A stretch of DNA of 43,887 nt from a virus. The translations under genes were made by a program, and so were the position numbers. How positions within the stretch are numbered: the first letter of the stretch is position 1; each line of letters begins with the position of its first letter. Below, in pieces: positions 17,247 through 32,848 of the stretch. The stretch is from positions 1 through 43,887 of IMG/VR virus record IMGVR_UViG_3300013103_000669, one strand, 5' to 3'. The notes below the pieces were generated by a model that was not told the origin of the DNA, made no database searches, and worked only from the letters and a program-made list of their open reading frames with translations.

Positions 17247-20200
17247 TTAAAATTCCTTACCATTTAAAAATACATCAATAGGCCCTTCATATTGTTTATC
17301 AGTTCTTATGAGACCATTTATTAATTCCCTCCGCGTATTTGAAAAAGCAATACCTAACCTCCAGCTTTCTTTTGCTGGAATTGATTGAATTGATACAAAC
17401 GTAAACGGGGTTGTATCTCTATTTTTCTCCAATCTCCATTTTGTATTTTTATCTGTCCACATCAATTGTGAAACAAGACATTCAAAATGTATATGATTTA
17501 ATTTTCGACTTTCATTGTAAATATTATATAACTCTTCTGTAATTTGACCAGGATGTGTTATATTAGTAAATTTATGCAACAATTTAGAAATAGCCGATAA
17601 TGCACCAATAATATCTTGCTGTTGAATATCACCACTCCCTTTATTTTTTGATTTATCTTTTTTCTGGGTTTGTGTTATTTGAGCAACACCGGAATTATGT
17701 ATAAATACGCCAGCGCCAGTAGCAAAATTGTGATGTTCTGAATCAACAGTTAAGTCATATAAATTTTGTGGTTCATCATATGTTATTAATTCTATTTTTG
17801 TAATTTTATGATTATTTTGTAGAAAATCTAAACAATTTGGGGAAAGGCGATCCAATGCTTCCCTACCCCAACGAAATCGAGCATCTGGATATATTGTTGC
17901 ATTAGCGGCATCAAAATTAATTTCACTAAATTCTAAATTTTTATCTTTCAACACACAAAGAATTTTTGCTACTCGAGTTTCAGCTTGAATTTGATTATGC
18001 GGTTTAAAAACCGGTTCAATTATTATAAATTTTTCAATTAATTCTGGATAATTGTTTTGAACATATTCGAATGTTGGAATTTTTCTGTTATTTATTCGAA
18101 TTTCTTCATAACTTTCATTTGTTAACTCCAAACCATTATCAATTACTGCTTGAATATTGTTTTGAATCATTGTTAATCTTGCTTTTTGAAAACAAGCGCT
18201 ACCGTGATTTGGGTTAGCTTCAAAGAATTTTTTCCTTGATTCATTTATTTGATCGTATATATTATTATCTACCATTGTTTTATTTCGTTTTTCATTAAAT
18301 TTTTTAATAAAGTCAGGATTTTGACAACGTCTTTTATTTGATTCCGAAACAACAATTTTCATTTTTTCAGAATCTCTTGCTTTTACTGCGTCTGGTGAAT
18401 GTAATAATATATGATTATTTTCATTCATAATTAAAATATTTGTTGGAATATCATTTAATTTATTTTTATCAATATGATGACAATGGTGCTTTGAATCATT
18501 TTGTAAATTTTTATCAATATTTACATCGCCATGTTGAGCAGATAAATGATAAACAAAATCAATTCTAGAATTGGGATGGTATTTCATTTGAATGTTTTGT
18601 TTTACTGTTTTATATCCATCTTTGGTGTCAGAATATATTGGCATTAACGAATCACCAATTTTTAATTCATCGGCTCGTATGGCTTCACCATTTCTTTTTA
18701 TCCATTCATGATCAAGACTGGATTCAATAAATTCACCATTGTCCAAGGTAATTTTTAATACCGTTTTTTCAAATCGATCTCTGTGAGCATCAACTACTTT
18801 TGAAACTTCGATTTTACCTTCTGGCGAACAACTAAATGTATAAAAATCTCCACCCAATTTAACTTTGTTATAAACATCTTCAATTGTGTAGGTATTACAA
18901 TTTACATCCATAATAAGTGTATCAGATTTTAAACTGGTATGAAAAGTTCTCAAAACCAATTGGGTGTTTACTTCGCCGAGACTTTGGGCTGCAATTACCC
19001 CAACATAACGACTTCTGAAAACTCGCCAAGTCTCCCCAAAACATCTTTTGCAAAGACGCTCGTTTTTGCAATATATGGGTGTTCTTATAAATATTGTTTT
19101 ACCAATTACAGTTGTATAATTTTTGTGGGTTAAATTAAGCAATTCAGTTTCACCAGGATTATTAATGAACCATTTCCCAATTAATGAAAATGCTTTTTTT
19201 GCATCATTTACAAAAATTGATAAATAATCTGTGGTGCCACAATCAGAATCGTTTTCGCAATCGTCAAGCATTAAATTAACCATTGAATAAAGAGTCTTTC
19301 GGAATAGATAACCTGAGTCAGAAGTTTTAACTGCAACATCAAGCAATCCCTTTCTCGCCCCGTATGAGGAAATGAAAAATTCTTTTTTAGTCAACCCATC
19401 ACAAAAACTATTTTTAATTGGTGTTTGTACAATCTGACCTTGAAAATTTGAAACATAACCACGGCAAAATACCATTTGTTTAACCTGGTCCATTTTACCT
19501 CGAGCTCCGCATTTTACAATATATGAATATTCAAAATTATCTTCGACTTTTTCCATAATTGATTCATCATTTAAAAGCCGCAATTGTTCTTTGCTAGATT
19601 CGATTGCAAATATCTCACTTTTCAAATCTTTCATTTCATGCACATTTTCAAGAGACATTGTACAGCCAACAACCGTGGCATATTTAAAACCGACAAATTT
19701 AACTTTATCTAAAGTTTCAACAATCTCACCCGGATAATCCAAATAAACCAAATTCAAATGAAACCCAATTTTACTTGAATCAAGCGACTCCAAAATAGGG
19801 GGGTATTGTTCGGGAAAACATTCATTTAATATTTTCTGACCCTCGGTCATTTGAACCCCTTTATATTCTGTCATCATTGAAAGTTTTTTAACTTTATTGG
19901 ATGATAAATAATACAAACCCAAAACCATATCCTGACTTGGTTTTGTTGAAAGGGTTAAATTTCCGGGTGTTATTAAATTTCGAGAAGCTAGGGTTTTATC
20001 CAATACTTCAGCTTTTGCTTCTTTTGATAATGGTATATGAACTGCCATTGTATCGCCATCAAAATCTGCATTAAAACCTTCGCAAACTAAAGGGTGAATA
20101 TATATTACACTTACATAACGAACTTTAATATTAAATCCAACCATACCAAGACGATGCAATGATGGTTGGCGGTTTAATAAACAAACTTCATCTTCAACAA

Positions 20201-21278
20201 TTTTTTCACAGACCGATAATAACATTGGGTCGTTTTTTACAATACAATCATCAATCAATTTCAATGCTCTATTTGTAAATCGAAATGCCCCAGATTCTGT
20301 TAAATACCGTGAAATACGCAAACGAAATAACTCCAATACCATTTTATATGGGAGAACACATTCATTTAGCGAAAGAGTTGGGTCAGGCGCAATTACTGCT
20401 CGAGCAGAAAAATCCATTCTCTTACCTAAAATATTGGATCTAATAATACCTTCTTTTTTAGATAATTTTTCAATAACATGCTCAAACAATTCATTTACAA
20501 TTTTTTGAAATTGGATATAATAGGTATAATACAGACTTCGATTTGTATTAATATTGAAATCAGTTTTAATGAATAATTCTTTTTTATTCAATAACCGATA
20601 ATAAAATTCATTCATTTTATCAACATTTTTTGAATCTGTTTTTTGAATGATTGGGCGAAAATCAGGTGGGTTAATAAATACATCTTCAATAAATAGATGG
20701 TCAATATTATTGAGAATCTGTTGATATTCGGACATTCCAATGGAGATTAATTCTTCACAATTGTCTTTTACGAGATAATCAATTGATTCATGCAATGTTA
20801 ATAGCTTTGCTTCTGGTGATGGCATTTCTTCATCATCAACGCCAGAATAATAATATAAAATAACATCATCACTACCCTCACGATCCTTATCCCAATAGAA
20901 ATAATTATGTTCATTATTCATCAGGTTTTTGATGGTTTTTATTAATGTATGATTTTCACCAAATATTTTAGAAATGTATTTTAGGAAAAATGGATTTACA
21001 ACTTTAATTGGAAGGTTAATTCTTGCGTGTTGTCTTCTTCTTTTGAATTTGGAATAAGTATAATTTACACCACATACTTTGCAATGTACATCTGGATCTT
21101 CTTCAATTGGCTTGCCATGATATTTTCCGCAGGCACATCTATAATTATATGTCGGGCCAAAAATAATTTCGGAAAATAAACCTTCTTTATGGAATCGCTT
21201 TTTCTTACTCGCCAAATAAGCCGAGTTTTTTACTTCTGGTAACTTTCTAACAATTTCTTTGGATAGAAATTTTAGCAT
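17247..21278 (-). CDS. rpoC-like: RNA polymerase beta'-like subunit with intein
   Basis: Catalytic subunit, 1343 aa as translated and 929 aa after predicted splicing. N-terminal zinc site: Cys48, Cys50, Cys66, Cys69. Then RQHARINLPIKVVNP (lid/clamp region), GKRMDFSARAVI, NRQPSLHR (about 369-376) and the metal-binding NADFDGD (403-409). A second cysteine group (CKNERLCKRC) precedes the trigger-loop segment TQLVLRTFHT, where His780 is the catalytic trigger-loop His. An intein interrupts directly after (782-1195). The C-terminal extein (ESWRLGIAFSNTRR) matches the end of beta'. ATG 21278 has AGGGGG upstream. It heads an operon with beta and FolE2 from a promoter-like motif at 21331. Confidence 0.96.
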   Translation of the reverse strand: MLKFLSKEIVRKLPEVKNSAYLASKKKRFHKEGLFSEIIFGPTYNYRCACGKYHGKPIEEDPDVHCKVCGVNYTYSKFKRRRQHARINLPIKVVNPFFLKYISKIFGENHTLIKTIKNLMNNEHNYFYWDKDREGSDDVILYYYSGVDDEEMPSPEAKLLTLHESIDYLVKDNCEELISIGMSEYQQILNNIDHLFIEDVFINPPDFRPIIQKTDSKNVDKMNEFYYRLLNKKELFIKTDFNINTNRSLYYTYYIQFQKIVNELFEHVIEKLSKKEGIIRSNILGKRMDFSARAVIAPDPTLSLNECVLPYKMVLELFRLRISRYLTESGAFRFTNRALKLIDDCIVKNDPMLLSVCEKIVEDEVCLLNRQPSLHRLGMVGFNIKVRYVSVIYIHPLVCEGFNADFDGDTMAVHIPLSKEAKAEVLDKTLASRNLITPGNLTLSTKPSQDMVLGLYYLSSNKVKKLSMMTEYKGVQMTEGQKILNECFPEQYPPILESLDSSKIGFHLNLVYLDYPGEIVETLDKVKFVGFKYATVVGCTMSLENVHEMKDLKSEIFAIESSKEQLRLLNDESIMEKVEDNFEYSYIVKCGARGKMDQVKQMVFCRGYVSNFQGQIVQTPIKNSFCDGLTKKEFFISSYGARKGLLDVAVKTSDSGYLFRKTLYSMVNLMLDDCENDSDCGTTDYLSIFVNDAKKAFSLIGKWFINNPGETELLNLTHKNYTTVIGKTIFIRTPIYCKNERLCKRCFGETWRVFRSRYVGVIAAQSLGEVNTQLVLRTFHTSLKSDTLIMDVNCNTYTIEDVYNKVKLGGDFYTFSCSPEGKIEVSKVVDAHRDRFEKTVLKITLDNGEFIESSLDHEWIKRNGEAIRADELKIGDSLMPIYSDTKDGYKTVKQNIQMKYHPNSRIDFVYHLSAQHGDVNIDKNLQNDSKHHCHHIDKNKLNDIPTNILIMNENNHILLHSPDAVKARDSEKMKIVVSESNKRRCQNPDFIKKFNEKRNKTMVDNNIYDQINESRKKFFEANPNHGSACFQKARLTMIQNNIQAVIDNGLELTNESYEEIRINNRKIPTFEYVQNNYPELIEKFIIIEPVFKPHNQIQAETRVAKILCVLKDKNLEFSEINFDAANATIYPDARFRWGREALDRLSPNCLDFLQNNHKITKIELITYDEPQNLYDLTVDSEHHNFATGAGVFIHNSGVAQITQTQKKDKSKNKGSGDIQQQDIIGALSAISKLLHKFTNITHPGQITEELYNIYNESRKLNHIHFECLVSQLMWTDKNTKWRLEKNRDTTPFTFVSIQSIPAKESWRLGIAFSNTRRELINGLIRTDKQYEGPIDVFLNGKEF
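17694..18935 (-). other. Intein with HNH domain in RNAP beta' trigger loop
   Basis: In-frame 414-residue insertion between RTFHT and SGVAQI of beta'. It starts with Ser (SLKSDTLIM, block A), has a block-B-like region with LDHEW, an HNH-like core (HHCHHIDKNKLN...N..H), and ends FATGAGVFIHN followed by Ser (+1). Terminal His-Asn plus a nucleophile after it is the standard splicing signature; Ser instead of Cys at position 1 is the less common variant. The extein joins perfectly to the RpoC consensus FHTGG. The insertion is one residue after the catalytic His, so the polymerase should be inactive until spliced. The HNH core suggests homing ability. Confidence 0.93.
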
Positions 21279-21344: not shown

Positions 21345-21380
21345 ATAAAAAAATCAAGAACTATATAATTAATAATTTTT

Positions 21381-21423
21381 AATGACCTTGCGTTAATAAA
21401 TATAACATTAACACAAGGTCATT
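21381..21423 (-). terminator. Long hairpin (17 bp) ending the 21435 gene, no clean T-run
   Basis: Minus-strand RNA forms a full 17-bp stem (AATGACCTTGTGTTAAT with its partner, one U-G pair) and a 9-base loop. It starts 12 bases past the stop of the 232-aa gene. In plus-strand RNA the wobble becomes a C-A mismatch, so selection appears to act on the minus transcript. The following bases are AAAAATTATTAATT rather than a T-run, so it may be a non-canonical terminator or a 3'-end-protecting or processing structure. Confidence 0.65.
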
Positions 21424-21434
21424 ACGGAGAAAAC

Positions 21435-22133
21435 TTATGTTGTCGAAATCTGACATTTCACTTTCCACCACACATATTCAACCCAATTTCCAAGCGTTAT
21501 TAAAGGCCACGCTACAACATCAACTAACTTTGAAAGTTTGCTAAAACGAATTGCGCAAAGTTCTTCAAACTTATTAGTTGAACGAAATTTTGAATTGAAA
21601 CACCCTGTTGTCGACCTTACCCACATATGGGCAAATATTTTAGCCGATAAATATTTATCACCGACATCGCGCAACCAGCGGCGAGAAGGTCGACAATAAT
21701 GTGTTCCCTTTCGATGAGAACGCATCACAGGATTCCAATTAGCTGTAAAGCAAGAATCAAAATTCCATGTTTCTAACTTTGACAAATTTGAACCTTCGAT
21801 CCCGTCCGGAGTTAAAACACCCAAAGGATGGCAAATTTTTCGTACCATGGTCCCATCTTCAATTATATCGTCACGCCGAAGAAAGTCATAAATATCCCAA
21901 TCCATATACGACTGAGGATGCATATGGTCAATTACCCAGCCTGACTTAATATTAAAATTATCATTGTCAAGCAAGTCTCCTTGCAAAACAATATTGCGAA
22001 GAATTGATTTCTCACATCCTTGTTTCTTTTTAACCGCAACAGCCATCCCATCAAAAACAACTGTTGCTGGGTGGCTAATTACTTCTAACAATAACCACCC
22101 GTGTTTAATCTTTGTAATGTTAATAACCTTCAT
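21435..22133 (-). CDS. Unknown 232-aa protein rich in Trp, Cys and His
   Basis: Not recognised. Visible features: DHMHPQSYMDWDIYDF near residues 70-85, eight or so cysteines, SHRKGTHYCRPSRRW (about 138-152), and a C-terminal Trp-rich hydrophobic stretch (WPLITLGNWVEYVWWK) that could be a weak membrane or packing segment. The His/Cys pattern could bind a metal, but there is no known motif. AAAGGAG precedes ATG 22133. It has its own promoter-like motif overlapping the end of the upstream E1-like gene and its own 3' hairpin, so it may be a single-gene unit. A 9-bp hairpin (22152-22160 with 22174-22182) lies in its leader. Confidence 0.7.
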   Translation of the reverse strand: MKVINITKIKHGWLLLEVISHPATVVFDGMAVAVKKKQGCEKSILRNIVLQGDLLDNDNFNIKSGWVIDHMHPQSYMDWDIYDFLRRDDIIEDGTMVRKICHPLGVLTPDGIEGSNLSKLETWNFDSCFTANWNPVMRSHRKGTHYCRPSRRWLRDVGDKYLSAKIFAHMWVRSTTGCFNSKFRSTNKFEELCAIRFSKLSKLVDVVAWPLITLGNWVEYVWWKVKCQISTT

Positions 22134-22181
22134 TTTTTCTCCTTTTATTAATTATTGAAAGACAACTTTTTATTTTCAATA

Positions 22182-22195
22182 AATATATATAGTCA
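22182..22195 (-). promoter_or_regulatory. Promoter-like motif TGACTATATATATT
   Basis: Differs at one base from the motif at 31488-31501 and sits 48 bases upstream of ATG 22133. It overlaps the TGA stop of the E1-like gene (22193-22195). A 9-bp inverted repeat (TTATTGAAA with TTTCAATAA) lies directly downstream in the leader. Confidence 0.6.
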
Positions 22196-23011
22196 CGCTG
22201 CCCCATTTGCAACCAAAATTTGAACCGATATAAATATATCATCTGTATAAGAATAATAAAATTCCGGATACCCAACATATTCATCTAAATTTAAATATGA
22301 TTTTATATCAGCGACCAAATTTTGGGATTGCAATTTTGGGTCGGTTATTTTTTTAATAAGGCGTTCTGCAATAATCATTGAATCTTCAAAAATTGCTACC
22401 CTAAATGGTTTTTGAGAAACCATCGCTTTATTCATCAAATTTTCAAAATCTATTTTTTCAAATGTCGGAGCTGCTAAATAATCTTTAACATTATAGCGGG
22501 TTATAACATATAGCGGATTGTCTTTCATTCGGCTGTGTATTATATCTCTATCAAATAATATTTCAACCAATTGTTTGGTTAAATTATCAATATCATTAGG
22601 TGGGCATTTTGTAAAATATTCACCTTTTACATCAAATTGGTATTTATGGTTAACTCGTCGATCTACGATTAATCTCTCACCGCTTAAAAATAACTTAATT
22701 GTATTTGGGTTTGTTGATAATCTATCTATCATATCTCGGCAATCAAAAACTAAATCATATTTTTCAAAATTTGGTATGTCATTTTCTACTACAAGTTGAT
22801 TTTTTGCTTCAATTTTATTATTGCTAATTTGTTTAAGAATATTAACTTTAGGTTGCCCAATATCATTAGCGCCGTATACATTATTAATATTTCTTTCTTC
22901 AACGCAGTCATTATCAAATATTGAAATATGACAATCATCTATATAGTTTACCATGCTCGATACTAAAGATGACCCAACTGCACCGACGCCAATTACTGCT
23001 ATATTTGACAT
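22193..23011 (-). CDS. Second E1/ThiF-like Rossmann protein (272 aa)
   Basis: Likely an adenylating enzyme of the ThiF/MoeB/E1 superfamily. It has the nucleotide-binding GVGAVG near the N-terminus (Gly8-Gly13), the end-of-strand acid pair FDNDCVEERNINN (Asp33, Asp35, Arg40, Asn43), a Lys at 55 and FDCRDMIDR around 89-97 in place of the usual D-x-x-x-x-R. No CxxC zinc knuckle is visible. The second half is not recognised and lacks an evident catalytic Cys, so it could be a non-catalytic E1 partner. The start at 23011 is chosen because AGGAGG lies six bases before it; an upstream TTG at 23056 would begin inside the terminator hairpin. It is separated from the first E1-like gene by the 173-aa gene. 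Confidence 0.82.
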   Translation of the reverse strand: MSNIAVIGVGAVGSSLVSSMVNYIDDCHISIFDNDCVEERNINNVYGANDIGQPKVNILKQISNNKIEAKNQLVVENDIPNFEKYDLVFDCRDMIDRLSTNPNTIKLFLSGERLIVDRRVNHKYQFDVKGEYFTKCPPNDIDNLTKQLVEILFDRDIIHSRMKDNPLYVITRYNVKDYLAAPTFEKIDFENLMNKAMVSQKPFRVAIFEDSMIIAERLIKKITDPKLQSQNLVADIKSYLNLDEYVGYPEFYYSYTDDIFISVQILVANGAA

Positions 23012-23017
23012 ATATAA

Positions 23018-23023
23018 CCTCCT
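23018..23023 (-). promoter_or_regulatory. AGGAGG ribosome site deciding the 23011 start
   Basis: A perfect AGGAGG lies six bases before ATG 23011. It excludes the upstream TTG at 23056, whose extra residues do not fit the ThiF fold, which begins SNIAVIGVG. Confidence 0.85.
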
Positions 23024-23032
23024 AAAAATTTG

Positions 23033-23075
23033 AAAAAAATCTGGTCCCCACGCCAACAGTAGGGGACCAGATTTT
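23033..23075 (-). terminator. Strong intrinsic terminator after the 173-aa gene
   Basis: A 14-bp perfect stem (AAAATCTGGTCCCC with GGGGACCAGATTTT) and a 12-base loop is followed by a run of seven Ts on the minus strand. It stands about 30 bases past the stop of the 173-aa gene and only ten bases before the AGGAGG of the next gene. Expression of that gene would therefore need read-through, or a promoter not seen. Confidence 0.95.
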
Positions 23076-23107
23076 CAGTAAATCGCGATTTAATTACTAC
23101 TTATATT

Positions 23108-23629
23108 TTATTTTTTACCGCGGTAACTAGGATGTTTCCGCAAATATAGGACCCAACAGCCCTTGCTTCCATCGGATTTGGGAAATGAAACTTCCCGACC
23201 ATTCTGGACAATATAATCATCATCCACAACACCGAAATCGTCACCACATCCAGCTTTAAATTTAACATATGCTGCTGCTGATGCAGGCGGGCGAACTGTA
23301 GATGTCCGACGAATATCTTTGACCGTAATCGGCCCTTCCATTAAATCAAACTTGACCCCAAGAGAAACCTTGACGATCGGCTTGGCAACCGAGCCAGCTT
23401 CTTCTTCTTCAAACCCTTCATCCGAAAGATCAACACTTTCGACCGGTTCAACAGTAGCAGCAGGTGCAGATACAGGTTTGTCTTTTTTAGACTCCCCATC
23501 GGCTGCCAGAAGCATAGCAATAACAACGTCTTTGGGTTTCTTGGAATACCCAACCAGCCCTTTTTCTTTAGCTGCGTTCTTCAGATCTTTTACCGTCATT
23601 TCCTGCAATTGCTGTTTTGTTTTCGCCAT
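23108..23629 (-). CDS. SAP-like domain plus compact C-terminal domain (173 aa)
   Basis: Residues 1-45 (LQEMTVKDLKNAAKEKGLVG, then KKPKDVVIAML) look like a SAP/Rho-N-type helix-extended-helix nucleic-acid-binding domain. Residues 46-85 are a Pro/Ala/Glu-rich linker. Residues 86-173 are strand-rich with two Cys and end SYRGKK. The gene is visibly richer in G+C (25-27 per 60 bases in two lines counted) than its neighbours and has AAGGAG plus a strong terminator, all suggesting high expression. It lies between two E1-like genes downstream of a JAMM peptidase. It is therefore a candidate modifier or substrate of that system, possibly with a beta-grasp C-terminal domain (inference, untested). It could instead be an unrelated abundant DNA-binding or virion protein. 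Confidence 0.75.
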   Translation of the reverse strand: MAKTKQQLQEMTVKDLKNAAKEKGLVGYSKKPKDVVIAMLLAADGESKKDKPVSAPAATVEPVESVDLSDEGFEEEEAGSVAKPIVKVSLGVKFDLMEGPITVKDIRRTSTVRPPASAAAYVKFKAGCGDDFGVVDDDYIVQNGREVSFPKSDGSKGCWVLYLRKHPSYRGKK

Positions 23630-23659
23630 TGTATTTCTCCTTTATATATTGGCGTTGTT

Positions 23660-23672
23660 GGCTGATTCAGCC
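23660..23672. repeat. 13-base palindrome GGCTGATTCAGCC in gene gap
   Basis: A perfect 6-bp inverted repeat with a single central base lies in the 72-base gap upstream of the 173-aa gene, 31 bases before its ATG. It is too tight to fold as an RNA hairpin, so if functional it would be a protein-binding site. It may be chance. Confidence 0.35.
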
Positions 23673-23701
23673 TTTTAAGAGACCCCTTTGGCCCATAAAA
23701 T

Positions 23702-24418
23702 CTAAACTGGTAATTCGGATTTTGCAGTTGCCATTTCAACTACATCAAAATAGATTTCGGAAGTTTTATTTAATTCCTCATCTTTTAATATATATAGCAA
23801 ATATTTATAAACACCCCAGCAAATAATAAGGGAAGCCGAAGCATTTGCAAAAATCAGTTGTGGGTCAGACCCCATTGCAATCATTTCTTCACACCCAATA
23901 TCAGCCGGGTTTTTATCAGCAGGGTTAGCTATTTCATCATGGTATTTTTCAATAGGTGGAAGTTTATCAACACCACCTTCACGATGGTAAAACAATACAG
24001 CCCCATCAACATAATCATTACCACCAGAAATTAAAATAACATCATCCAATGTTTGACAATATTGGCTGACAGCCAATCTGCTTGCGCGATTATCAACGCC
24101 CATTAAAACCATTGTATTTGTCCCAAATACTTCTTCAATGTTTTGCTTGGTGATGTAATGGGGATAGCAATTTATTTTAATATTACCTTCGTATGTTTCT
24201 TCTAGTTCGGCAGCTTTCATCTGAGCTTTATTTTTACCAATTGTATCCTTGGTGAAAGATTGGCGTTCAATATTTTTATTTTCAACACCATCTCCATCAA
24301 CAAGAATAATAGGTATATCATATTTCAGATGACTAACATATCGAGCCAGCAAATCAGTCAGATGGGTACCAATACCCCCAATTCCAATAATAACAATTTT
24401 TAAATTTTCAATTTTCAT
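23702..24418 (-). CDS. E1/ThiF-like adenylating enzyme (PRTRC-ThiF type), 238 aa
   Basis: Predicted to adenylate the C-terminus of a ubiquitin-like or sulfur-carrier partner. The Rossmann motif is GIGGIGTH (Gly12-Gly17), followed by LVDGDGVENKNIERQS (Asp41, Asp43, Asn48, Arg52 as in ThiF/MoeB), then GKNKA (Lys62/Lys64) and MGVDNRASR (Asp109), all in canonical order. Cys176 in IGCEEMIAMG is a possible thioester or thiolate residue. No CxxC zinc pairs are visible, as in the PRTRC-ThiF family. The layout D-x-D-x-V-x-x-x-N-I-x-R-Q matches that family well. It is two bases from the JAMM peptidase gene, with a good GGAG site. It is the clearest enzyme of the putative conjugation operon. Confidence 0.9.
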   Translation of the reverse strand: MKIENLKIVIIGIGGIGTHLTDLLARYVSHLKYDIPIILVDGDGVENKNIERQSFTKDTIGKNKAQMKAAELEETYEGNIKINCYPHYITKQNIEEVFGTNTMVLMGVDNRASRLAVSQYCQTLDDVILISGGNDYVDGAVLFYHREGGVDKLPPIEKYHDEIANPADKNPADIGCEEMIAMGSDPQLIFANASASLIICWGVYKYLLYILKDEELNKTSEIYFDVVEMATAKSELPV

Positions 24419-24420
24419 TT

Positions 24421-25734
24421 TTACTCCTTGGTGGGTTTTGTATCATTTGATTTTACACCTGTAATTGGCGAAAACTCTTTTCGATTTGCTTCCTGCATAA
24501 TCTGACTTGGTGTTTGAGATTCTGATTCGACTGGCGGTGTATCAAAATTATCATCACCTACACCATAGCCACACATTTCCAAATAGTCATAATCATCATC
24601 CGCAGCAAAACCTATTGGGGTGTGGCTGTTGAAATTTCGATTATATGGATATTTTTGGGGGGTTAAATAGTTTTGATGTTTAAATTCAACAATTGTTTCA
24701 TACCACCCTTCTGGATATCCCAGGTTTTCATCAAACCCTTCGAAAGTTTTAAAATTCGTGGTTGAAATAATTGGTGTTTTTGAAATTGATTTTGCGCTAT
24801 AATCAGGTTTGGTGTGTGTTCTTGTTTTTATTACACCCGGTTTAATATTCGTAGGTGGCGTAGTTTTGGTTTTAATTATTAAATTTTTTCCACTAGGAGA
24901 TTTAATTATTAAATTTTTTACAGTTGTAAAAATTTTATTCAATGCTGGTTCTTGTTTTTTAGGAGGTTCGGATTTTACAATATTGGTTTTGTTAGGAGAC
25001 TTTTGTGGCTCAACTAATTTTCCATTCTTAGCTGAATATGAATTTACACCAATGGATGGGTTTTTGGGGCATGAATACCCACCCCCATAACCATAGTGTC
25101 CATAATTATAAATGCGTGATGCATTCTCACGAGGTGCCTCAATAAATTTTTCACCTTCAAACCAATCTTTAACATCATATTTGAACCGATTTGAATCAAC
25201 TACAATTTCAGATGAAAATGTAAATAAATAATCATCGGTATTAAAATTTCCCAATGTGATATGTAAACCGTCAAAATCCATTTCATCTGCTACATCCGTT
25301 GCTGAATGAAAAGCATTCATTGAAGCATGAGAATGAATTGACCCACATAAAACAAAATCATCAGATTGAATATCAACTTCGTAACTGATTGATGCAGCCG
25401 TTACAGATTGAACTTCTGGAGGTCTAACTATCATCTCCTTGGTTTCAAAATTATAATATAAGAGAACCATTACTTCGGATTTTCTTTTATCATAGACGTC
25501 TTTGAAAAAGCACACCACCTGACATAATTGTTCAACAGTCAATTTGGGGAGATTTATTTTTGCGAATGTTTGCACATCTTTCAAATGGCGCAGATTTTTC
25601 ACTGGCGTAATTGAATTAAACATTGATGTTCGCTGTTTTAAATAAGTTCCATTGTGCGCTACGATGTAACATGACCGCTCTTTTTTAAGGGCGGCCAGGT
25701 CACAATCATCATCCATTATATATGTTTTTATCAT
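24421..25734 (-). CDS. JAMM/JAB metallopeptidase (PRTRC protein A-like), 437 aa
   Basis: Zinc isopeptidase-type domain that in related systems trims or removes ubiquitin-like proteins. It has the exact JAMM signature HSHASMNAFHSATDVAD (His134, His136, Ser144, Asp147), with Glu87 in KSEVMVLLYYN as the probable catalytic acid. The preceding VRPPEVQSVTAASISYE strongly recalls PRTRC protein A. Residues beyond about 200 are low-complexity, Lys/Pro/Thr-rich, and probably disordered up to a Tyr-rich tail. ATG 25734 is chosen because AAGGAG lies five bases upstream; an in-frame ATG at 25764 lacks a site and would overlap the previous gene. It sits between the E2-like gene and the E1-like gene. Confidence 0.92.
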   Translation of the reverse strand: MIKTYIMDDDCDLAALKKERSCYIVAHNGTYLKQRTSMFNSITPVKNLRHLKDVQTFAKINLPKLTVEQLCQVVCFFKDVYDKRKSEVMVLLYYNFETKEMIVRPPEVQSVTAASISYEVDIQSDDFVLCGSIHSHASMNAFHSATDVADEMDFDGLHITLGNFNTDDYLFTFSSEIVVDSNRFKYDVKDWFEGEKFIEAPRENASRIYNYGHYGYGGGYSCPKNPSIGVNSYSAKNGKLVEPQKSPNKTNIVKSEPPKKQEPALNKIFTTVKNLIIKSPSGKNLIIKTKTTPPTNIKPGVIKTRTHTKPDYSAKSISKTPIISTTNFKTFEGFDENLGYPEGWYETIVEFKHQNYLTPQKYPYNRNFNSHTPIGFAADDDYDYLEMCGYGVGDDNFDTPPVESESQTPSQIMQEANRKEFSPITGVKSNDTKPTKE

Positions 25735-25739
25735 TATTT

Positions 25740-25745
25740 CTCCTT
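25740..25745 (-). promoter_or_regulatory. AAGGAG ribosome site deciding the 25734 start
   Basis: AAGGAG lies five bases before ATG 25734, in the short gap after the E2-like gene's stop. It argues against the longer reading from 25764, which has no comparable site and adds a MPNHWHKGEI segment not expected of the fold. Confidence 0.85.
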
Positions 25746-28171
25746 TATGCCAATGGTTCGGCATTGTTTAATACAACATTAATAAAATTCTCTGGTACAA
25801 TTACATTAATTAAGCCAAAACAACAATTTGCATCTTCAATTCTATAACGGTTGCAAGATGTAACATCTACCCCGCCTCTACGTTTTCGATAATGAGATGT
25901 TGGGTTACTTATGTATGCTTTTAAATTGCCACTTTTTAAAATACGTGTTTCAGTCGTCCCATGCGAATTATCAAAAAATCTGTCAAGTACTTCACACGGT
26001 ATGGTAACACCGTTATCAAAAACAGCATTAAAGAATTCTTCACCATTTACACCACGTTTTTTAACAACAGCAATAATTGTATAAATCCTAGTTGAATAAA
26101 AACCATAATCAGATATTTTTATTTTGCCTTTCTGCCCGACGAATGCAAATAAAGACTCATCTTCAATTTTTGTTATCCATGTTATATCATCATAATCAAA
26201 ATTAAAAAAGGTAAATGCACCCTGTCGAATTAATGAAAATGAATAAATTGTGCCATCGTCTGCTAAAAGTTCAACAAACATATTATTATCATCTGTATAA
26301 AATCTTACAATTTCACAAGGACCACGATAATAATCATTAATATTCCTCAGCCAATTTTTCTCAGTTATTAAAACTTTATCGCCGACAGCTAAATCTACTT
26401 CAATAAATGGTCTTTCTGCAACTACTTCATCCCCTTGGAATCTAAAAGGAATATTATAACCATAGTTTGTAGCAACATCAAGAGCTATTTTAAATGTTTG
26501 GGTGTTAATGCAATCTATAATAAAGGTACGTATAAAATTAGGAGTAAACCCGTCTTCCCAACGATCTCTATTTCTATTACCTATATCAAATATTGATTCA
26601 AAATGGCAACTATTATTACGAGCTTCATTAAATGTTTCTGGCAATGCTATTGTGTGAATTATTTGCCCCTGCGATAAATATTCCACAATTATCATATTTT
26701 TCAAAATAACCATTCTTGGAATATCAACGCCCGCCACATATGATTTTAATTGATTAGGGTAAAATGTGCTTAACCCTTCATTTTTATGTATGTCAAGGTC
26801 TTCGTTTTCATAAACAATTTTATCAATTCTTACCCCATACATTGATTGTTTGTATAATAATTGACATTTGTTAATCTGAATCATGTTTACATTATATTGT
26901 GATATAAACCCAAACGCATCTCTAGAATTTAAATGCGCACACGCTATAACACCATCGTGTTTTATATATTCTCTTAAAACTGATTGATTTGTTCTATATT
27001 GCAAGCCTTCTGAAATTAAATTGACAATAGCAGGATTTGATTTCGCTGATTCAATATCGGAATAAACAATATCATACCCTGAATCCCCACAATTTGTTAA
27101 AACGTATTTATCACTAACTGCAATAACAATTTCATATTCGTGTCTGCTGCCAGAAATTACGGCTTGTCTAATGCTAAATCCATTCACAATGCCTGATATT
27201 TTCATATTAGGCAAACCGCAAATCATCAAATCATATTCACCGCATGTTAAATATTCAATATATTTTTCACGACTTATTTGAATTGTTGTATTTGACTCAA
27301 GCGAATACATCTGAAAATATAATTTATGAGATAAACCGCCTGCACTCAAACACATTTGTAATTGGCCATCTTTAAATAATTCAACTTTTGAAAATATCAA
27401 AGGTTCATCTAAATTGAAAATATCATCAGTATTTTTAACAGTAATATCATTTTCAAAAATATTTTCCGCATTAGATAATGATGTATAAAACCTATTATCA
27501 TATTCCACATAGTTAATTAATTCAACAAATTTACGTTTGCGGTATGTTTCTCTAACTCCAATATTTAAAAATACTTTTGGATGATCCGCCAATCTTGATG
27601 AAAGCGTAAATGATTCCAACGGATTCTCAGTCATTGGGGTAATTGCAGTGTCTGATAAATCCGTATTAAAATCACGATTCCAAAAAGTTTCAATTAAAAT
27701 ATTACATACCAATTTGGCTTGAGGTGTTTTATACATAGCATCTTCAACTAAGGATGGCATATCGCCCATACAAACCTTCCAATCTCCAGAATATATATTT
27801 GGGTAATTTAACCTACCTACAAAATCTCCGGGTCGAGTAAATTTAGTTTGTGAACGAACGATTTTCAATGTATAATAAGCATCACCAGAATTATAATTTG
27901 AATGCACAATGTAAAATAATCTTGGCAATTTTACATTATAAGCTACATGTCGGTCTGAATTAATATCAATTGATTCAGGGTGTAATACGCTCGGTAATGC
28001 ATTAACAATCTGACTATATGTCGCCCTGGTTATTGTAATTATTCTATCTTCAGGTGGCATCTCAATAACAGCAATCCATTTGGTTGAGCCGCTTGCTGAA
28101 AAATAAATACAATTTTCCGGCCTTTCATCAAATAAACCAAATCTTTGTAAATCTCTAAATTTATTTATCAT
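25745..28171 (-). CDS. E2-like (PRTRC protein B-like) protein fused to a large C-terminal region, 808 aa
   Basis: Residues about 85-175 resemble the E2/UBC fold as proposed for PRTRC protein B: strand-rich LFYIVHSNYNSGDAYYTLKI, then YPNIYSGDWKVCMGD with Tyr123-Pro124-Asn125 and Cys134 placed like the His-Pro-Asn...Cys of E2 enzymes. This is followed by IETFWNRDFNTDLSD, like the Phe/Trp-rich helix after the Cys. PRTRC-B proteins are about 240 aa, so the remaining 600 residues (beta-rich, unrecognised) are an unusual extension. It starts inside the stop of the next paralogue (ATGA) with a GAGGT site. It is followed by the JAMM and E1-like genes. The E2 assignment is an inference from the motif and neighbours. 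Confidence 0.75.
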   Translation of the reverse strand: MINKFRDLQRFGLFDERPENCIYFSASGSTKWIAVIEMPPEDRIITITRATYSQIVNALPSVLHPESIDINSDRHVAYNVKLPRLFYIVHSNYNSGDAYYTLKIVRSQTKFTRPGDFVGRLNYPNIYSGDWKVCMGDMPSLVEDAMYKTPQAKLVCNILIETFWNRDFNTDLSDTAITPMTENPLESFTLSSRLADHPKVFLNIGVRETYRKRKFVELINYVEYDNRFYTSLSNAENIFENDITVKNTDDIFNLDEPLIFSKVELFKDGQLQMCLSAGGLSHKLYFQMYSLESNTTIQISREKYIEYLTCGEYDLMICGLPNMKISGIVNGFSIRQAVISGSRHEYEIVIAVSDKYVLTNCGDSGYDIVYSDIESAKSNPAIVNLISEGLQYRTNQSVLREYIKHDGVIACAHLNSRDAFGFISQYNVNMIQINKCQLLYKQSMYGVRIDKIVYENEDLDIHKNEGLSTFYPNQLKSYVAGVDIPRMVILKNMIIVEYLSQGQIIHTIALPETFNEARNNSCHFESIFDIGNRNRDRWEDGFTPNFIRTFIIDCINTQTFKIALDVATNYGYNIPFRFQGDEVVAERPFIEVDLAVGDKVLITEKNWLRNINDYYRGPCEIVRFYTDDNNMFVELLADDGTIYSFSLIRQGAFTFFNFDYDDITWITKIEDESLFAFVGQKGKIKISDYGFYSTRIYTIIAVVKKRGVNGEEFFNAVFDNGVTIPCEVLDRFFDNSHGTTETRILKSGNLKAYISNPTSHYRKRRGGVDVTSCNRYRIEDANCCFGLINVIVPENFINVVLNNAEPLA

Positions 28172-30756
28172 TCGATTACCTCATTGTTTTCAATATTTTT
28201 TACATCACCAAAAATGTATCTATCATTTCTGCCATAGTTGGCTACAAACCCAGCTATATTTCCTAATTCATTTTCATCATTCGAACTCCAAGTATTTACA
28301 AAACCATTAAATTTATTCCAACAAATTTTTCCATTTTTTAACAATTCGCTAGCAAAACTAATGCGAGTATCATACCTTGATATTTTTGTAATCTCTGGTT
28401 CAGGAATTCCTGCATAAATATCTACAGTCGTTTTAACGGTTTGTGTAGCTTTTGTTTTTACATCAGCTAATTTCATATACATCCGAACAAACCCCAATGG
28501 TAAAGTTCTTCCATTATGAAATAATACAATTGAATTATCTTTAGATAGGTGTGGAATAATCATCTTAATTTGAAAATAACATTTTTTAGATTTGAAATGC
28601 ATTGCGTTATGCGCAACATTTTCAAGCATTTGCAATTTAGCTCCCATTTTAATATGACCTTGTGAAAAATCAAACCACGGAAGAACTTCAAATTTAAATT
28701 GGTAACCATGAAAAGAATAAACAGGCAGGATTGAGCTAAAAATTACAGTTTCTAAAACATCACCGGTTATTTCATTTTCGATTGTTGCCATTACTGCAAA
28801 TTCGTCGTCATTAAACCGATATTTTTTAGGTGTGGTAATTGTCAACCGTGTAAATGATTTATCTACAATATAAATATCTTTTATAATATAACTATCTGAA
28901 AGCAATTGTTGGGTTAATCGTTTTGTATAAATACATTTTTCACCAACCCTATATGTTAAATTAATTCCATTTACCACAATAGACATATATTGCTGCTCAA
29001 TCATTTCCATTACCATATCTTCAAACAACTTCTCGGCTGAAAATGGAGGATCATTAGGCTCATCTATAAATAATCTAACATTCATTATATCATCTACATC
29101 TGGATCATCAGATACAATTCGTTCAATATGCTCAACAACATTTCCGATATAAGTATCCATATATGAACCTAATTTGAATATAAACATAAGTTCCGGCACA
29201 GTCTCAATTTTATAATCATCAATTACATGAATATTATTTATAAACCCACTCCCACACCCAATTGCTTCTGTTTTGTAATAATATAACAATTTAAATTGGG
29301 TATCGGCCATAAAAATTTTAAATTTATAATCACCAATCTCAACACATTTAATATCACTTTTATATTCCATTTTGGTTTCAAATTCTGCATTTAAATCATC
29401 TGTAAAATCGCTCTTTTTAACCAAACTAAAATTATTGGACACCGTATATCCATGTGATATTGGGCCTGACATTGCTTTACAATATAGCCTGTCAAAATTT
29501 CTAGCATGTCGATTTGTAAACCCACCAAATGCTTGCATGAACACATAATCTTGATTAATTTGAATCACAGGTTTTTTCATAGTTCCGATTTCATCCAACC
29601 CAGCGATTTTAACAAATTCATCAACTGTCACACAATTAAAATCTTTATCTGAACACTCTAAAAATTTATCACTCGTATTATTTGCATTTGGGTTTCTCAT
29701 CAGGTTTAAAAATGGAATTGTATCTAAGGTCATATTCTTTTTATTAAAATAACCTGTTAAATGATATTGCCTAGAATCAGTTAATACAATATCACCATTC
29801 AATTTTGTTTTGATAGGAGCTGCTGTTCTTAAAAACATTTTTTTAAGATTATCTAACTCAACCAATACAATTTTTCTATCGGTAGCATTAAACATTTCAA
29901 CATGCGTTGCAATTGTAAACTTATTTTTCATCTGACTATATACATTTTGGGAATATTTATAAACCGCTACATCATTTAATTCACTTATATCAAAATCACA
30001 TTCAGGCACCGTTAATTTTGGGCGGAATGATTTTACAACATATTTTTTGCCACCGATTTTAAATGATTCACCGATCACAATATGCCGAAATATTTCATTC
30101 GATAATTTTAAATCAATATCATAACCAGGGGAGAATATATTTTTTTCATTAATCAATCCCATATATTGATTAAATTTTGAATTTTCATCAATGGTATCTT
30201 CTAATGGTTCAAATTCCATAATGTGTTGAAAATAATAATCCCTAATCGTATCTGAAATTTTTGAATCTTTAATATCATACCCGGAGCTAGCATTTTTATC
30301 CAAAATCAAATGGGTGTTAAAATAAAATCTATGAATATAATATTCTAACATCTTAGGCATAAATATATTATCAATCGTTAATTGGGTTTTTGGCAATTGG
30401 AATTCAATTTGGTTTCCCATATAAAATTGGTCAGGAATATTATAAATCGTCATTTCACTGTGCCCATTGACACATACTGATATTGTTATAATTTCATTTT
30501 CAATATTATAAATGCCACGAATACATATTGCAGGAAGATTAATTAAATTCATACCTTCCTGAAGATCTTCCTGGTGTGGAAAAACATTTTCTTTTTCAAA
30601 CCATTCAGCAAGATGGCTATCTATTGACAATGGGTATGATGATTCCTTATACGCCGAAGCCATTAATATTTCATTTTTGCCATGTAAATAATATCTACAA
30701 TTTTCTGGAATCGTGCCCACCTCAACTCCAATGCCCATCAATTCACTTTTATACAT
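28168..30756 (-). CDS. Paralogue of the E2-like protein with Tyr in place of the active Cys, 862 aa
   Basis: Shares several marks with the 808-aa neighbour: an N-terminal PENC (17-20 here, 18-21 there) followed by Tyr and a strand, then an x-M-G motif (FYMGNQ, Tyr112) exactly 34 residues before FNTHL. In the neighbour, CMGD (Cys134) lies exactly 34 residues before FNTDL. The putative catalytic Cys is thus Tyr112 here, and the Pro-Asn-Ile preceding it is lost. This looks like a catalytically dead, UEV-type partner produced by duplication (inference). The remaining 700 residues are beta-rich and unrecognised. ATG 30756 has a GGAGG site, and the stop overlaps the next start. The second gene of the operon. 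Confidence 0.75.
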   Translation of the reverse strand: MYKSELMGIGVEVGTIPENCRYYLHGKNEILMASAYKESSYPLSIDSHLAEWFEKENVFPHQEDLQEGMNLINLPAICIRGIYNIENEIITISVCVNGHSEMTIYNIPDQFYMGNQIEFQLPKTQLTIDNIFMPKMLEYYIHRFYFNTHLILDKNASSGYDIKDSKISDTIRDYYFQHIMEFEPLEDTIDENSKFNQYMGLINEKNIFSPGYDIDLKLSNEIFRHIVIGESFKIGGKKYVVKSFRPKLTVPECDFDISELNDVAVYKYSQNVYSQMKNKFTIATHVEMFNATDRKIVLVELDNLKKMFLRTAAPIKTKLNGDIVLTDSRQYHLTGYFNKKNMTLDTIPFLNLMRNPNANNTSDKFLECSDKDFNCVTVDEFVKIAGLDEIGTMKKPVIQINQDYVFMQAFGGFTNRHARNFDRLYCKAMSGPISHGYTVSNNFSLVKKSDFTDDLNAEFETKMEYKSDIKCVEIGDYKFKIFMADTQFKLLYYYKTEAIGCGSGFINNIHVIDDYKIETVPELMFIFKLGSYMDTYIGNVVEHIERIVSDDPDVDDIMNVRLFIDEPNDPPFSAEKLFEDMVMEMIEQQYMSIVVNGINLTYRVGEKCIYTKRLTQQLLSDSYIIKDIYIVDKSFTRLTITTPKKYRFNDDEFAVMATIENEITGDVLETVIFSSILPVYSFHGYQFKFEVLPWFDFSQGHIKMGAKLQMLENVAHNAMHFKSKKCYFQIKMIIPHLSKDNSIVLFHNGRTLPLGFVRMYMKLADVKTKATQTVKTTVDIYAGIPEPEITKISRYDTRISFASELLKNGKICWNKFNGFVNTWSSNDENELGNIAGFVANYGRNDRYIFGDVKNIENNEVIE

Positions 30757-30767
30757 TCGTTCCTCCG

Positions 30768-31436
30768 TTATTTAAATCGATTCATAACTTCTTTCAATTT
30801 TACAACGAACTTAGTTATGATGTCTTTGCTTTTTGCAGGACGATCACCATTTAAGTCATCGTAAATTTTGATTTTAGTTTTTTGAATTAATTGTATATCA
30901 TCCCCATGACCATCCATTGAAAACAATGTCATATGAAATGTATCACCAAGCAAATCTTTACTAAGACAACAGATTTTTGGATTTCCCAGTGAGTCAATTT
31001 TAACTTTCATAATATATTCGGAGCTTTTTAACCGTATTAGAACTCCGCTAAATTCAGGATTTTCCCAAAATTTTTCATTCTTTTTATTTTCTTCTAATTG
31101 CATTTTCCTAAAAAAATCAATTATTTTATCACCCTCGGATAATTCTTTCGGCATTTCGTTAACAATCTGGTCTAAAACTGTCATTTTATCCCCCCCGTTG
31201 GTTGCAAGACAAATGCGAATATCCCTACTTATATTTAAGTATAACAATTCGATTTCATCTTCAGTTAATATTTTTGAATTTATTATATCACCAAGTGTTC
31301 TGCAAAAATTTACAATAAATTTTTTAAACCCGCGAATTTTTTCTAGTTCGCGAAAAGTACCGTTGAAAGAAACCGGATAAACAATTTTTGACTTATTGTT
31401 TATCCGGTTTCTGAAATTGAGATGTTTCAACATCAT
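30768..31436 (-). CDS. Unknown 222-aa protein leading the ubiquitin-like operon
   Basis: Not recognised. Basic N-terminus (HLNFRNRINNKSK), helical middle, and a C-terminus ending KFVVKLKEVMNRFK. No catalytic motif seen. AGGAGG precedes a start cluster in which a two-codon reading ATG-AAA-TGA overlaps the real ATG-ATG start, so ribosomes may terminate and re-initiate here. The first 35 codons fold as three successive hairpins in the mRNA (see 31331-31440). Eleven bases separate it from the next gene. The promoter-like motif at 31488-31501 lies 51 bases upstream of its start. As the first gene of the operon it may be regulatory or a component of the system; neither is shown. Confidence 0.75.
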   Translation of the reverse strand: MMLKHLNFRNRINNKSKIVYPVSFNGTFRELEKIRGFKKFIVNFCRTLGDIINSKILTEDEIELLYLNISRDIRICLATNGGDKMTVLDQIVNEMPKELSEGDKIIDFFRKMQLEENKKNEKFWENPEFSGVLIRLKSSEYIMKVKIDSLGNPKICCLSKDLLGDTFHMTLFSMDGHGDDIQLIQKTKIKIYDDLNGDRPAKSKDIITKFVVKLKEVMNRFK

Positions 31437-31440
31437 TTCA
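31331..31440 (-). promoter_or_regulatory. Three tandem hairpins at the start of the operon's first gene
   Basis: Minus-strand RNA from 31440: hairpin 1 (31412-31440) has 6-bp and 6-bp arms (TGAAAT, then GATGTT with AACATC and ATTTCA) and holds the start codons. Hairpin 2 is a perfect 18-bp stem (31368-31385 with 31395-31412, arm AGAAACCGGATAAACAAT) with a 9-base loop. Hairpin 3 (31331-31336 with 31347-31352) pairs CGCGAA with TTCGCG. All lie in coding sequence directly after the AGGAGG site at 31445-31450. They could block or pace translation or attenuate transcription. A perfect 18-bp repeat in this AT-rich coding DNA is unlikely by chance. Confidence 0.75.
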
Positions 31441-31487
31441 TATTGCCTCCTACTGGAAAAATTAAAATAATTTCTCTAACACAAGGC

Positions 31488-31501
31488 AATATATATAGTT
31501 A
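31488..31501 (-). promoter_or_regulatory. Promoter-like motif TAACTATATATATT before the ubiquitin-like operon
   Basis: Minus strand, 51 bases upstream of ATG 31436, and one base different from the motif at 22182-22195. It is followed by AGAGAAATTATTTTAATTT (31477-31459), nearly identical to the leader at 13090-13072. It begins directly at the stop of the WYL_2-like gene. No -35 box is evident, so a phage-specific promoter is likely (inference). Confidence 0.6.
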
Positions 31502-31867: not shown

Positions 31868-32848
31868 TTATTTGCGTTTTTCGGTATGTTTTAATTCATC
31901 ATCCATACCCGATATCGCAAGCTGACTCATTAAACAACATGTCCAATTGCACTTTTCGCAAAGTAATTTTTTATCAATTGAAAATTTTGCATGACACATT
32001 AATTGATTGGATAATAATTCGACCACATTAATTGATTTAACCAGCTTGCCATCAATCCTTAAACATAGCCGCAAATAGCCATCAGCATCTACAGTTAAAT
32101 TGTGCAAACATTCTTCAAATTTGCAATCGTAATTAGCTGGAAGTATGTCAACAACCCTATCCATCAAAGCTTTACCCATATGAACATCCAGTCCGTCATT
32201 AACAAGATTGGTTAATACAGATTGGATTTTATCAGAGTTTTCAACCAGCATTGATTCGTCAGTCACATTACTAAAATCATAATAATCATTTTTCTTAACA
32301 TCAATAAATGTAATACTTGATGATATATTATTATAAGATAATTCATAAACCAATGGGTATAAATAATCAATGCTATCATTATCAACCGTAATTTCAGCAA
32401 CTAAATCCTTTATCCTTTTAGTTTTTGATAGGTGTATTAATCTATTATAACCTAATCGACTTTTTGTTAATCGATCACCTTTTTCTGCAAGCGGGTTGAA
32501 AATAATAGGATCGATTGATGATGTTAATCCTTGAATATAATCAACCTCATCCATTAATTTTTTGAGACGTTTTTGAACTCCATCAGAATTATTGGTAATA
32601 ATTGTATATGGTATATTGACCCGATTACATGAAAAAATAAGTTTTCCTAAATCATCATATAATAATGGCTCGCCACCATATAAAATATGAAATGGCTTAT
32701 ACACCTTATCTAACAATTTCATATCATACAATATATCTTCCCAATTTCTTTCTTCTACTTTTTTGTCAATGATTCCGCAGTATGAACATTTTAAATTGCA
32801 TCTACGAGTCAATAACCAGTTTACTATTTTTATATCAATTTTCTTCAA
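31868..32848 (-). CDS. Radical SAM protein with C-terminal cysteine cluster (SPASM-like), 326 aa
   Basis: The 4Fe-4S radical SAM motif is TRRCNLKCSYCG (Cys17, Cys21, Cys24), followed by HILYGGEPLLY, the usual GGE(P) SAM-binding strand. The C-terminal third has several Cys groups (CKFEECLHN, RLCLRI, CEKCNWTCC), as in SPASM/twitch enzymes that bind extra clusters and modify peptides or proteins. QueE (7-deazaguanine) was considered, but it is shorter and lacks these C-terminal cysteines. The start is TTG at 32848, five bases after GGGGG; no in-frame ATG fits before Cys17. It overlaps the 119-aa gene by 14 bases. Substrate unknown; the small neighbours are candidates. Confidence 0.87.
   Translation of the reverse strand: MKKIDIKIVNWLLTRRCNLKCSYCGIIDKKVEERNWEDILYDMKLLDKVYKPFHILYGGEPLLYDDLGKLIFSCNRVNIPYTIITNNSDGVQKRLKKLMDEVDYIQGLTSSIDPIIFNPLAEKGDRLTKSRLGYNRLIHLSKTKRIKDLVAEITVDNDSIDYLYPLVYELSYNNISSSITFIDVKKNDYYDFSNVTDESMLVENSDKIQSVLTNLVNDGLDVHMGKALMDRVVDILPANYDCKFEECLHNLTVDADGYLRLCLRIDGKLVKSINVVELLSNQLMCHAKFSIDKKLLCEKCNWTCCLMSQLAISGMDDELKHTEKRK

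Follow-up and report, generated by a model that had tools for sequence, protein, structure and literature searches.

Do phages encode ubiquitin-like (Ubl) conjugation systems of their own? Bacterial Ubl conjugation is already known to hit phages, and phage tail assembly is known to use a JAMM-Ubl pair, but in the open-licence PubMed Central literature we came across no account of a phage that has a cascade of E1, E2, Ubl and deconjugase of its own, nor of such a cascade as a core module adjoining a viral RNA polymerase (RNAP). The question is raised by an operon in IMG/VR virus record IMGVR_UViG_3300013103_000669, which in its complete length of 43,887 bases is the window analyzed here. Family scans found a terminase, RNAP beta and beta′, SbcC/SbcD-like proteins and a helicase in the window, which is a fragment of a jumbo-type phage. 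From 21435 to 31436 on its minus strand, eight genes for proteins of 222, 862, 808, 447, 238, 173, 287 and 232 amino acids (aa) lie head to tail, with overlaps or gaps of 2–72 bp at the junctions. An earlier note on this DNA had read these genes as one minus-strand unit for a PRTRC-like Ubl conjugation cassette, and this reading stands: the eight-gene operon is real, and it is a full, genuine and previously unannotated phage cassette for Ubl conjugation. We consider it likely that it provides the phage with a self-contained, reversible conjugation system.

The enzymes of the cascade carry much of this conclusion. The JAMM, ThiF and E2-like motifs quoted in the earlier note are all present, and sequence comparison confirms the JAMM peptidase, the E1-like ThiF protein (ThiF1) and an N-terminal E2 domain in the 808-aa protein. 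ThiF1 shows GxGGxG, DGD and NIERQ motifs, and across 33 E1 sequences GxGGxG, D41, D43, N49, R52, Q53, K64, D109 and C176 are invariant; the predicted E1 has the nucleotide site and a candidate for the catalytic cysteine that Ubl conjugation generally involves. The JAMM peptidase has E97, HSH at 144–146, S154 and D157, and the residues E97, H144, H146, S154 and D157 are 100% conserved in 35 relatives. The 808-aa protein, which contains the motif YPN..VCMG, gave no usable match in family scans when used alone, and the same holds for the 862-, 222- and 232-aa proteins. Relatives of its N-terminus match Prok-E2_D in 33 of 38 cases (best 8.9e-15) and PRTRC_B in 16 of 38, and the window protein itself scores 54.5 bits against an E2 profile built without the window, where the best shuffle reaches 11.9. 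Because of these matches we assign it as an E2. C134 and N125 are invariant among 31 E2 sequences, so that an E2 domain with a putative catalytic cysteine, also general to Ubl conjugation, is present. In this family, the E2 domain is the N-terminus of a protein of ~850 aa whose remaining ~600 aa have no recognized fold.

A conjugation cascade also needs a modifier. The earlier note had listed a small protein between the two ThiF-like genes, and this 173-aa protein is there, but its identity had been missed: judged by its relatives, it is the predicted modifier of the cassette, with an N-terminal SAP/Rho_N part, a linker and a C-terminal beta-grasp Ubl domain. The C-terminal domains of this SAP-Ubl family match the beta-grasp families TGS (17 of 27), ThiS (14 of 27) and Ub-Mut7C (4 of 27), and G154, K156 and G157 are invariant in 27 sequences. 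Most relatives end exactly at GxKG and some continue for 1–9 aa, compared with 16 aa in the window protein, a tail that the JAMM peptidase is expected to remove after G157. Locus L019 codes for SAP-Ubl-SAP-Ubl and L032 for three consecutive Ubls; these tails and tandem copies imply that a peptidase is needed. The Ubl half of the window protein scores 12.8 bits against the profile of its relatives (best of 1000 shuffles, 7.6) and is predicted to fold as b-b-a-b-b-b with moderate confidence (pLDDT, the predicted local distance difference test, about 45–77 by block, with a mean of 66.9 for the model). A beta-grasp modifier with a C-terminal glycine is thus predicted at the family level, and the window copy is a divergent member. 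An extra SAP/Rho_N-type protein without a Ubl lies directly before the E2 gene in two loci (L088:5423-5785, L091:5324-5764).

The arrangement of these genes recurs well beyond the window. Scanning viral contigs with either the 808-aa or the JAMM protein as a single query gave no match, and alignment queries were needed: a JAMM alignment retrieved 80 IMG/VR loci, and a SAP-Ubl alignment retrieved 63 and one GTDB contig. Loci of the close group share the gene order SbcC, radical SAM, WYL_2, c9, E2, JAMM, E1, Ubl, E1b (the second ThiF-like protein), E2b (a second E2-like family), RNAP beta′, RNAP beta. In the 64 loci, both RNAP genes and E1b are present in 64, JAMM and E1 in 63, E2b in 62, E2 in 58 and Ubl in 56. 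In many cases the missing gene belongs to a contig that breaks off within the cassette, and the eight ‘missing’ Ubls reflect contig ends or the picking of open reading frames (ORFs), as each locus was fetched by its Ubl match. The identical order in 64 loci places the clustering above chance. A chance meeting of unrelated Rossmann-fold and metallopeptidase genes could be argued from the absence of direct family matches for the window’s E2, Ubl and second E2-like proteins, but the constant order, a core held in common with the plasmid PRTRC genes B-A-ThiF, and the invariant catalytic residues all speak against it; we regard it as refuted by the synteny, and its remaining probability as negligible. 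In tree distances, the cassette genes track RNAP beta at 0.27–0.54, with E1, E2, JAMM and Ubl at 0.33–0.54, similar to RNAP beta′ (0.40), which indicates that these genes are co-inherited, the cassette behaving as a core module. Together with the order from E2 through JAMM, E1, Ubl, E1b and E2b to RNAP beta′ and beta in 64 loci, this marks it as a core module of one jumbo-phage lineage. The sole GTDB match, L087 (DAOVGR010000079.1), is a contig that carries the phage cassette in full and was binned with the metagenome-assembled genome of a Thermoplasmatales archaeon, which may reflect misbinning or an archaeal host.

This pattern of inheritance bears on what the cassette is for. The same biochemistry could serve counter-defence, by tagging or competing with host immune factors, or by using the JAMM peptidase to strip host Ubl or CBASS (Bil, Cap2) conjugates off phage proteins. 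During infection, host Bil and CBASS systems conjugate Ubl or cyclase (PMC10097602, PMC11153139), Hor 2024, as cited in PMC12660748, deals with this host Bil/CBASS conjugation, and JAMM proteins are multiplied in Borg elements (PMC12660748). However, genes for anti-defence tend to be small accessory genes with a patchy distribution, whereas this cassette keeps its synteny with RNA polymerase, and is inherited along with it, in 64 loci, and a mere deconjugase would have no need of its own E1, E2 and Ubl. We therefore consider counter-defence unlikely.

Simpler cassettes occur in other phages. A tblastn search found JAMM-ThiF pairs in Vibrio phages D69, D148 and D181, Salmonella phage Arash, Bacillus phage KLEB27-3 and a faecal phage contig; the simpler cassettes are found in Vibrio, Bacillus and Salmonella phages and in many metagenomic phages, and they keep the plasmid PRTRC order Ubl-x-E2-JAMM-E1. 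The window E1 clusters with L032, L041 and L043, which have such cassettes (support 100/99). Some have two to four tandem, ‘polyubiquitin-like’ Ubls ending in GTKG or GVKG (L003:2147-2854, L001:3415-4206, L070:6135-6884, L071:5877-6629, L045, L058, L062), and the carriers include Bacillus and Vibrio phage isolates: the KLEB27-3 cassette starts with gp199, which is four tandem PRTRC_C copies (8.8e-17), and in that of D69 the first protein consists of three similar repeats with G-T-K-G at the end of each. On two large Bacillota plasmids (L154, L155; Lysinibacillus, Sporosarcina), a JAMM-ThiF pair lies directly before dnaX, the gene for DNA polymerase III gamma/tau.

Table 1. Features of the operon and its flanks, in the direction of transcription (MFE, minimum free energy)
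Feature	Coordinates	Strand	Evidence
Leader hairpin	31439..31493	-	Pairs Shine-Dalgarno AGGAGG and start of first gene (222 aa); MFE -21.4 kcal/mol, z -4.5
222-aa protein	30768..31436	-	C-terminal half resembles the ~123-aa family c9, which has the same gene position before E2
862-aa protein, no recognized family	28168..30756	-	Sits where L136 has a duplicated E2-like protein
808-aa protein, N-terminal E2 domain (Prok-E2_D-like; residues ~15-175; candidate catalytic Cys134)	25745..28171	-	E2 profile built without the window; Prok-E2_D matches of relatives
JAMM/JAB peptidase, 447 aa, catalytic domain ~22-175	24421..25764	-	PRTRC_A 1.4e-9; E97, H144, H146, S154, D157
ThiF1, E1-like activating enzyme, 238 aa	23702..24418	-	Pfam ThiF 4e-22; PRTRC_ThiF 3e-14; nucleotide site D41/D43/R52/K64; candidate catalytic Cys176
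Predicted Ubl modifier precursor, 173 aa (SAP/Rho_N, linker, beta-grasp Ubl)	23108..23629	-	Profile of relatives E 2.8e-16; Rho_N 7e-4
Ubl domain, residues ~85-157, end SDG-S-K-G157	23159..23377	-	Invariant G154/K156/G157; profile score; predicted fold
C-terminal tail, 16 aa past G157 (CWVLYLRKHPSYRGKK)	23111..23158	-	Putative JAMM cleavage
E1b, second ThiF-like protein, 287 aa, end GAA	22193..23056	-	Pfam ThiF 5e-10; relatives match to 1e-19
232-aa protein, probable divergent member of second E2-like family (E2b; HPN..C..DDCYFxPW)	21435..22133	-	Profile match; position after E1b
19-bp hairpin after 232-aa gene, possible transcript end	21380..21424	-	MFE -25 kcal/mol, z -7.5; no U-tract

If the operon is a conjugation system, its parts suggest how it would work. 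The JAMM peptidase would trim the SAP-Ubl precursor after G-x-K-G, a cut that would also split the tandem forms of the relatives. ThiF1 would then adenylate the C-terminal glycine of the Ubl and probably accept the Ubl on Cys176; Cys134 of the 808-aa E2 domain would take it from there and hand it over to a target amine, and the JAMM peptidase could take the tag off again. The SAP/Rho_N domain of the modifier and the fixed place of the cassette beside the phage RNAP genes lead us to speculate that proteins bound to phage or host DNA or RNA are the likeliest targets, with control of transcription or genome handling as the outcome.

Two other uses of these protein families were weighed against conjugation. 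In the first, the E1 makes a Ubl thiocarboxylate of the ThiS/MoaD kind for thiolation of phage nucleotides, a cofactor or tRNA, and the JAMM peptidase merely trims. ThiS and TGS profiles do match the Ubl relatives, ThiF/MoeB profiles match ThiF1, and some bacterial sulfur carriers are thought to be trimmed by JAB peptidases (PMC1779556). However, the operon has a conserved E2 domain with an invariant cysteine, the modifier is fused to SAP and is tandem in relatives, and no rhodanese, cysteine desulfurase or thiotransferase was seen among the scanned window genes; a sulfur carrier role is thus quite improbable. In the second, the JAMM peptidase cuts an assembly factor at a defined point in virion maturation and so releases its Ubl part, as lambda gpK acts on gpI, without any conjugation. 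Tail assembly of lambdoid phages does use JAMM-Ubl pairs (PMC1779556, PMC12908700), but lambda-type modules lack E1 and E2 and are located in tail operons, whereas this cassette has conserved E1 and E2 proteins whose catalytic residues are intact, and its neighbors are RNAP subunits, SbcCD and radical SAM rather than tail genes. This makes virion maturation a very remote explanation.

Several observations weigh against conjugation itself, or against the targets proposed for it. Foldseek found no significant PDB match for the E2 model (pLDDT 71), with E2s such as Rad6 and UbcH7 appearing only among its weak matches, and none for the Ubl model, where only Rho was matched, by the N-terminus. Against BFVD, the matches were all unnamed phage proteins. 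The window Ubl is divergent and its model only moderate, and most of its whole-profile match is contributed by the last 24 residues together with the SAP part. A PDB sequence search with the Ubl profile returned chiefly Rho, matching the SAP part, and direct profile comparison of SAP-Ubl with PRTRC_C-like repeats was weak (probability 7–18%). The cassette contains no E3, the adjacency to RNAP may simply reflect that both are core genes, and conjugation activity and targets are predictions.

The remaining genes of the operon add to the cascade with varying certainty. The earlier note had proposed a second E1-like protein; E1b is indeed ThiF-like and retains GxGxxG, D48, D50 and K70, but it lacks the E1 arginine, and where E1s have their catalytic cysteine no cysteine is conserved; an invariant Cys106 of its own lies in a DCRD motif. 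The E1b proteins form a single clade distant from every E1 (tree support 100/100). SAE1 is the inactive partner of UBA2, and by analogy with it and with the inactive half of BilD, we would guess that E1b is most likely an inactive partner of E1. Across 60+ loci, the protein terminates near-invariably in TG[AG]A; among the 1738 ORFs that these loci encode at lengths of 100 aa or more, GAA is the final sequence in 69, E1b accounting for 68. This end might be an activated tail, a degron-like end or an active-site insertion; that it is a second charged or conjugated tail, by analogy with the cyclase tails of CBASS, is a distinctly doubtful possibility.

The E2-like character of the last gene of the operon was missed in the earlier note. 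Its 232-aa product scores 13.1 bits against the E2b profile (best of 2000 shuffles, 8.2), and the motifs HPN..C and DDCYFxPW are shared among E2b relatives; motif and synteny weakly indicate that it is probably a second E2-like protein. The E2 nature of the E2b family is itself deduced from the motif; a Pfam scan of the family gave nothing useful, and a PDB sequence search with its profile gave matches outside the catalytic region, which were disregarded. By analogy, it might act as an accessory E2-like factor. Of the E2-like pair in the earlier note, the 808-aa protein held up and the 862-aa protein did not. As an E2 paralogue, the latter scored −9.6 bits against a profile of 56 relatives, with 834 of 1000 shuffles equal or better, and it showed neither a match in family scans nor profile similarity to the E2 family. 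Descent from an ancient E2 duplication is a possibility suggested by position, as L136 has two E2 copies (785 and 814 aa). For the 222-aa protein, the match of the C-terminal half to full-length c9 is marginal, at 12.4 bits against 12.3 for the best shuffle (0 of 2000 as good).

Both hairpins that flank the operon are real folds. The structured leader seen in the earlier note overlaps the ribosome site of the 222-aa gene, and burial of this site and the start suggests translational control. The proposed terminator is a stable 19-bp hairpin but has no U-tract. Promoter-like matches in the region number 82 compared with 74.8 ± 9.3 in shuffles, so the ‘promoter-like motif’ carries no evidential weight. 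The repeat CCTTGTGTTA, present at both operon ends, was tried as a phage promoter and rejected as no better than chance.

Other features of the window lie around the cassette. The RNAP beta′ gene (17247-21278, minus strand) contains an intein (Intein_splicing 2.4e-11, residues about 820–1195); its relatives are ~900 aa and intein-free. Of the 64 loci, 56 have a radical SAM gene next to the cassette; its product in the window (31868-32848, minus strand) has prokaryotic viperins as its nearest match (pVip 1.9e-12; NCBIfam viperin_w_prok 7.8e-12, far under the cut-off). Two further minus-strand genes code for a FolE2-type GTP cyclohydrolase (13193-14074) and a QueD/PTPS protein preceded by an HNH-like stretch (39147-40235), and possibly belong to a 7-deazaguanine pathway, perhaps for DNA modification.

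The nearest known kind of system is PRTRC of plasmids and chromosomes (TIGR03734-03742), which resembles operon type 6d of Iyer 2006 (PMC1779556). PRTRC and the window have in common a JAMM peptidase (A) and a ThiF E1, probably an E2 (B, Prok-E2_D), the gene order B-A-ThiF (as in plasmids L151 and L152; plasmid PRTRC cassettes run ParB-E-C-F-B-A-ThiF) and a Ubl ending in G-x-K-G. The best family match of the window JAMM is TIGR03735, protein A (E 1.4e-9, 37.8 bits), under the cut-off of 101.8, and ThiF1 matches TIGR03736 (E 3.2e-14, 52.9 bits), under the cut-off of 144.75. Protein B is not matched by the window sequence alone; the Prok-E2_D and PRTRC_B matches given above belong to its relatives, against which the window sequence scores far better than shuffles. 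TIGR03738, the stand-alone Ubl protein C, has no match in the window, where SAP-Ubl fills the role instead, and ParB-related, E and F proteins were not found in the operon and the scanned flanking genes of this 43.9-kb fragment. Because the scores lie below all curated cut-offs, PRTRC_C does not match the Ubl and ParB, E and F were not found, the cassette is PRTRC-like rather than PRTRC. It also differs in having the Ubl fused to SAP and placed after E1, an E2 with a ~600-aa extension, additional ThiF-like and E2-like genes, and a fixed linkage to the phage RNAP.

The phage PRTRC-like cassettes of KLEB27-3, Vibrio phage D69, Salmonella phage Arash and IMG/VR loci L032, L043 and L045-L086 share E2-JAMM-E1, mostly with a nearby Ubl and in some cases two to four tandem copies, but lack the SAP domain, giant E2, E1b, E2b and RNAP synteny. 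Their genes are mostly annotated as hypothetical proteins in public records. The novelty claimed in the earlier note is narrowed accordingly, although in the open-licence PubMed Central literature we found no paper describing such cassettes: for phages, Iyer 2006 reported only the Ubl-JAMM pair of the lambda type, operon type 6d being described there from bacteria (PMC1779556), and the main text of the jumbo-phage survey of Iyer 2021 mentions no ThiF, JAB, E2-like or Ubl proteins (PMC7824862). These cassettes, including those of Bacillus and Vibrio phage isolates, offer compact systems for asking what PRTRC-like Ubl systems are for, a question since 2006, and a nucleic-acid-binding domain on the tag provides a concrete, testable idea of target choice.

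BilABCD and type II CBASS (Cap2/Cap3) likewise combine bacterial E1, E2 and JAMM proteins, and BilD has one inactive and one active adenylation half (PMC11354881); in type II CBASS, the Cap2 target is joined via its own C-terminus. Unlike the window cassette, they are host defenses with different E2 families and no SAP-Ubl. Of the PADLOC models, only the Rossmann core of E1-E2 models matched in the window, weakly (best 4e-9), with no JAMM, Ubl or E2 match, and the E2-E1 fusion, cyclase and BilA models specific to BilABCD or type II CBASS gave no match beyond this. Lambda gpI/gpK pairs a phage Ubl with a JAMM protein as here, but in a tail operon and without E1 or E2. The eukaryotic SUMO pathway is similar by analogy only, with active and inactive ThiF-type subunits, an E2 and a reversible tag on nucleic-acid proteins. 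That this jumbo-phage lineage uses a SUMO-like core pathway, with a two-subunit E1, two E2-like proteins and a nucleic-acid-binding modifier, to tag phage or host transcription machinery and so steer the infection programme is an idea we hold to be distinctly doubtful. SAP domains are found in SUMO ligases; unlike in SUMO, the SAP domain here is on the modifier itself, and the deconjugase is a JAMM peptidase.

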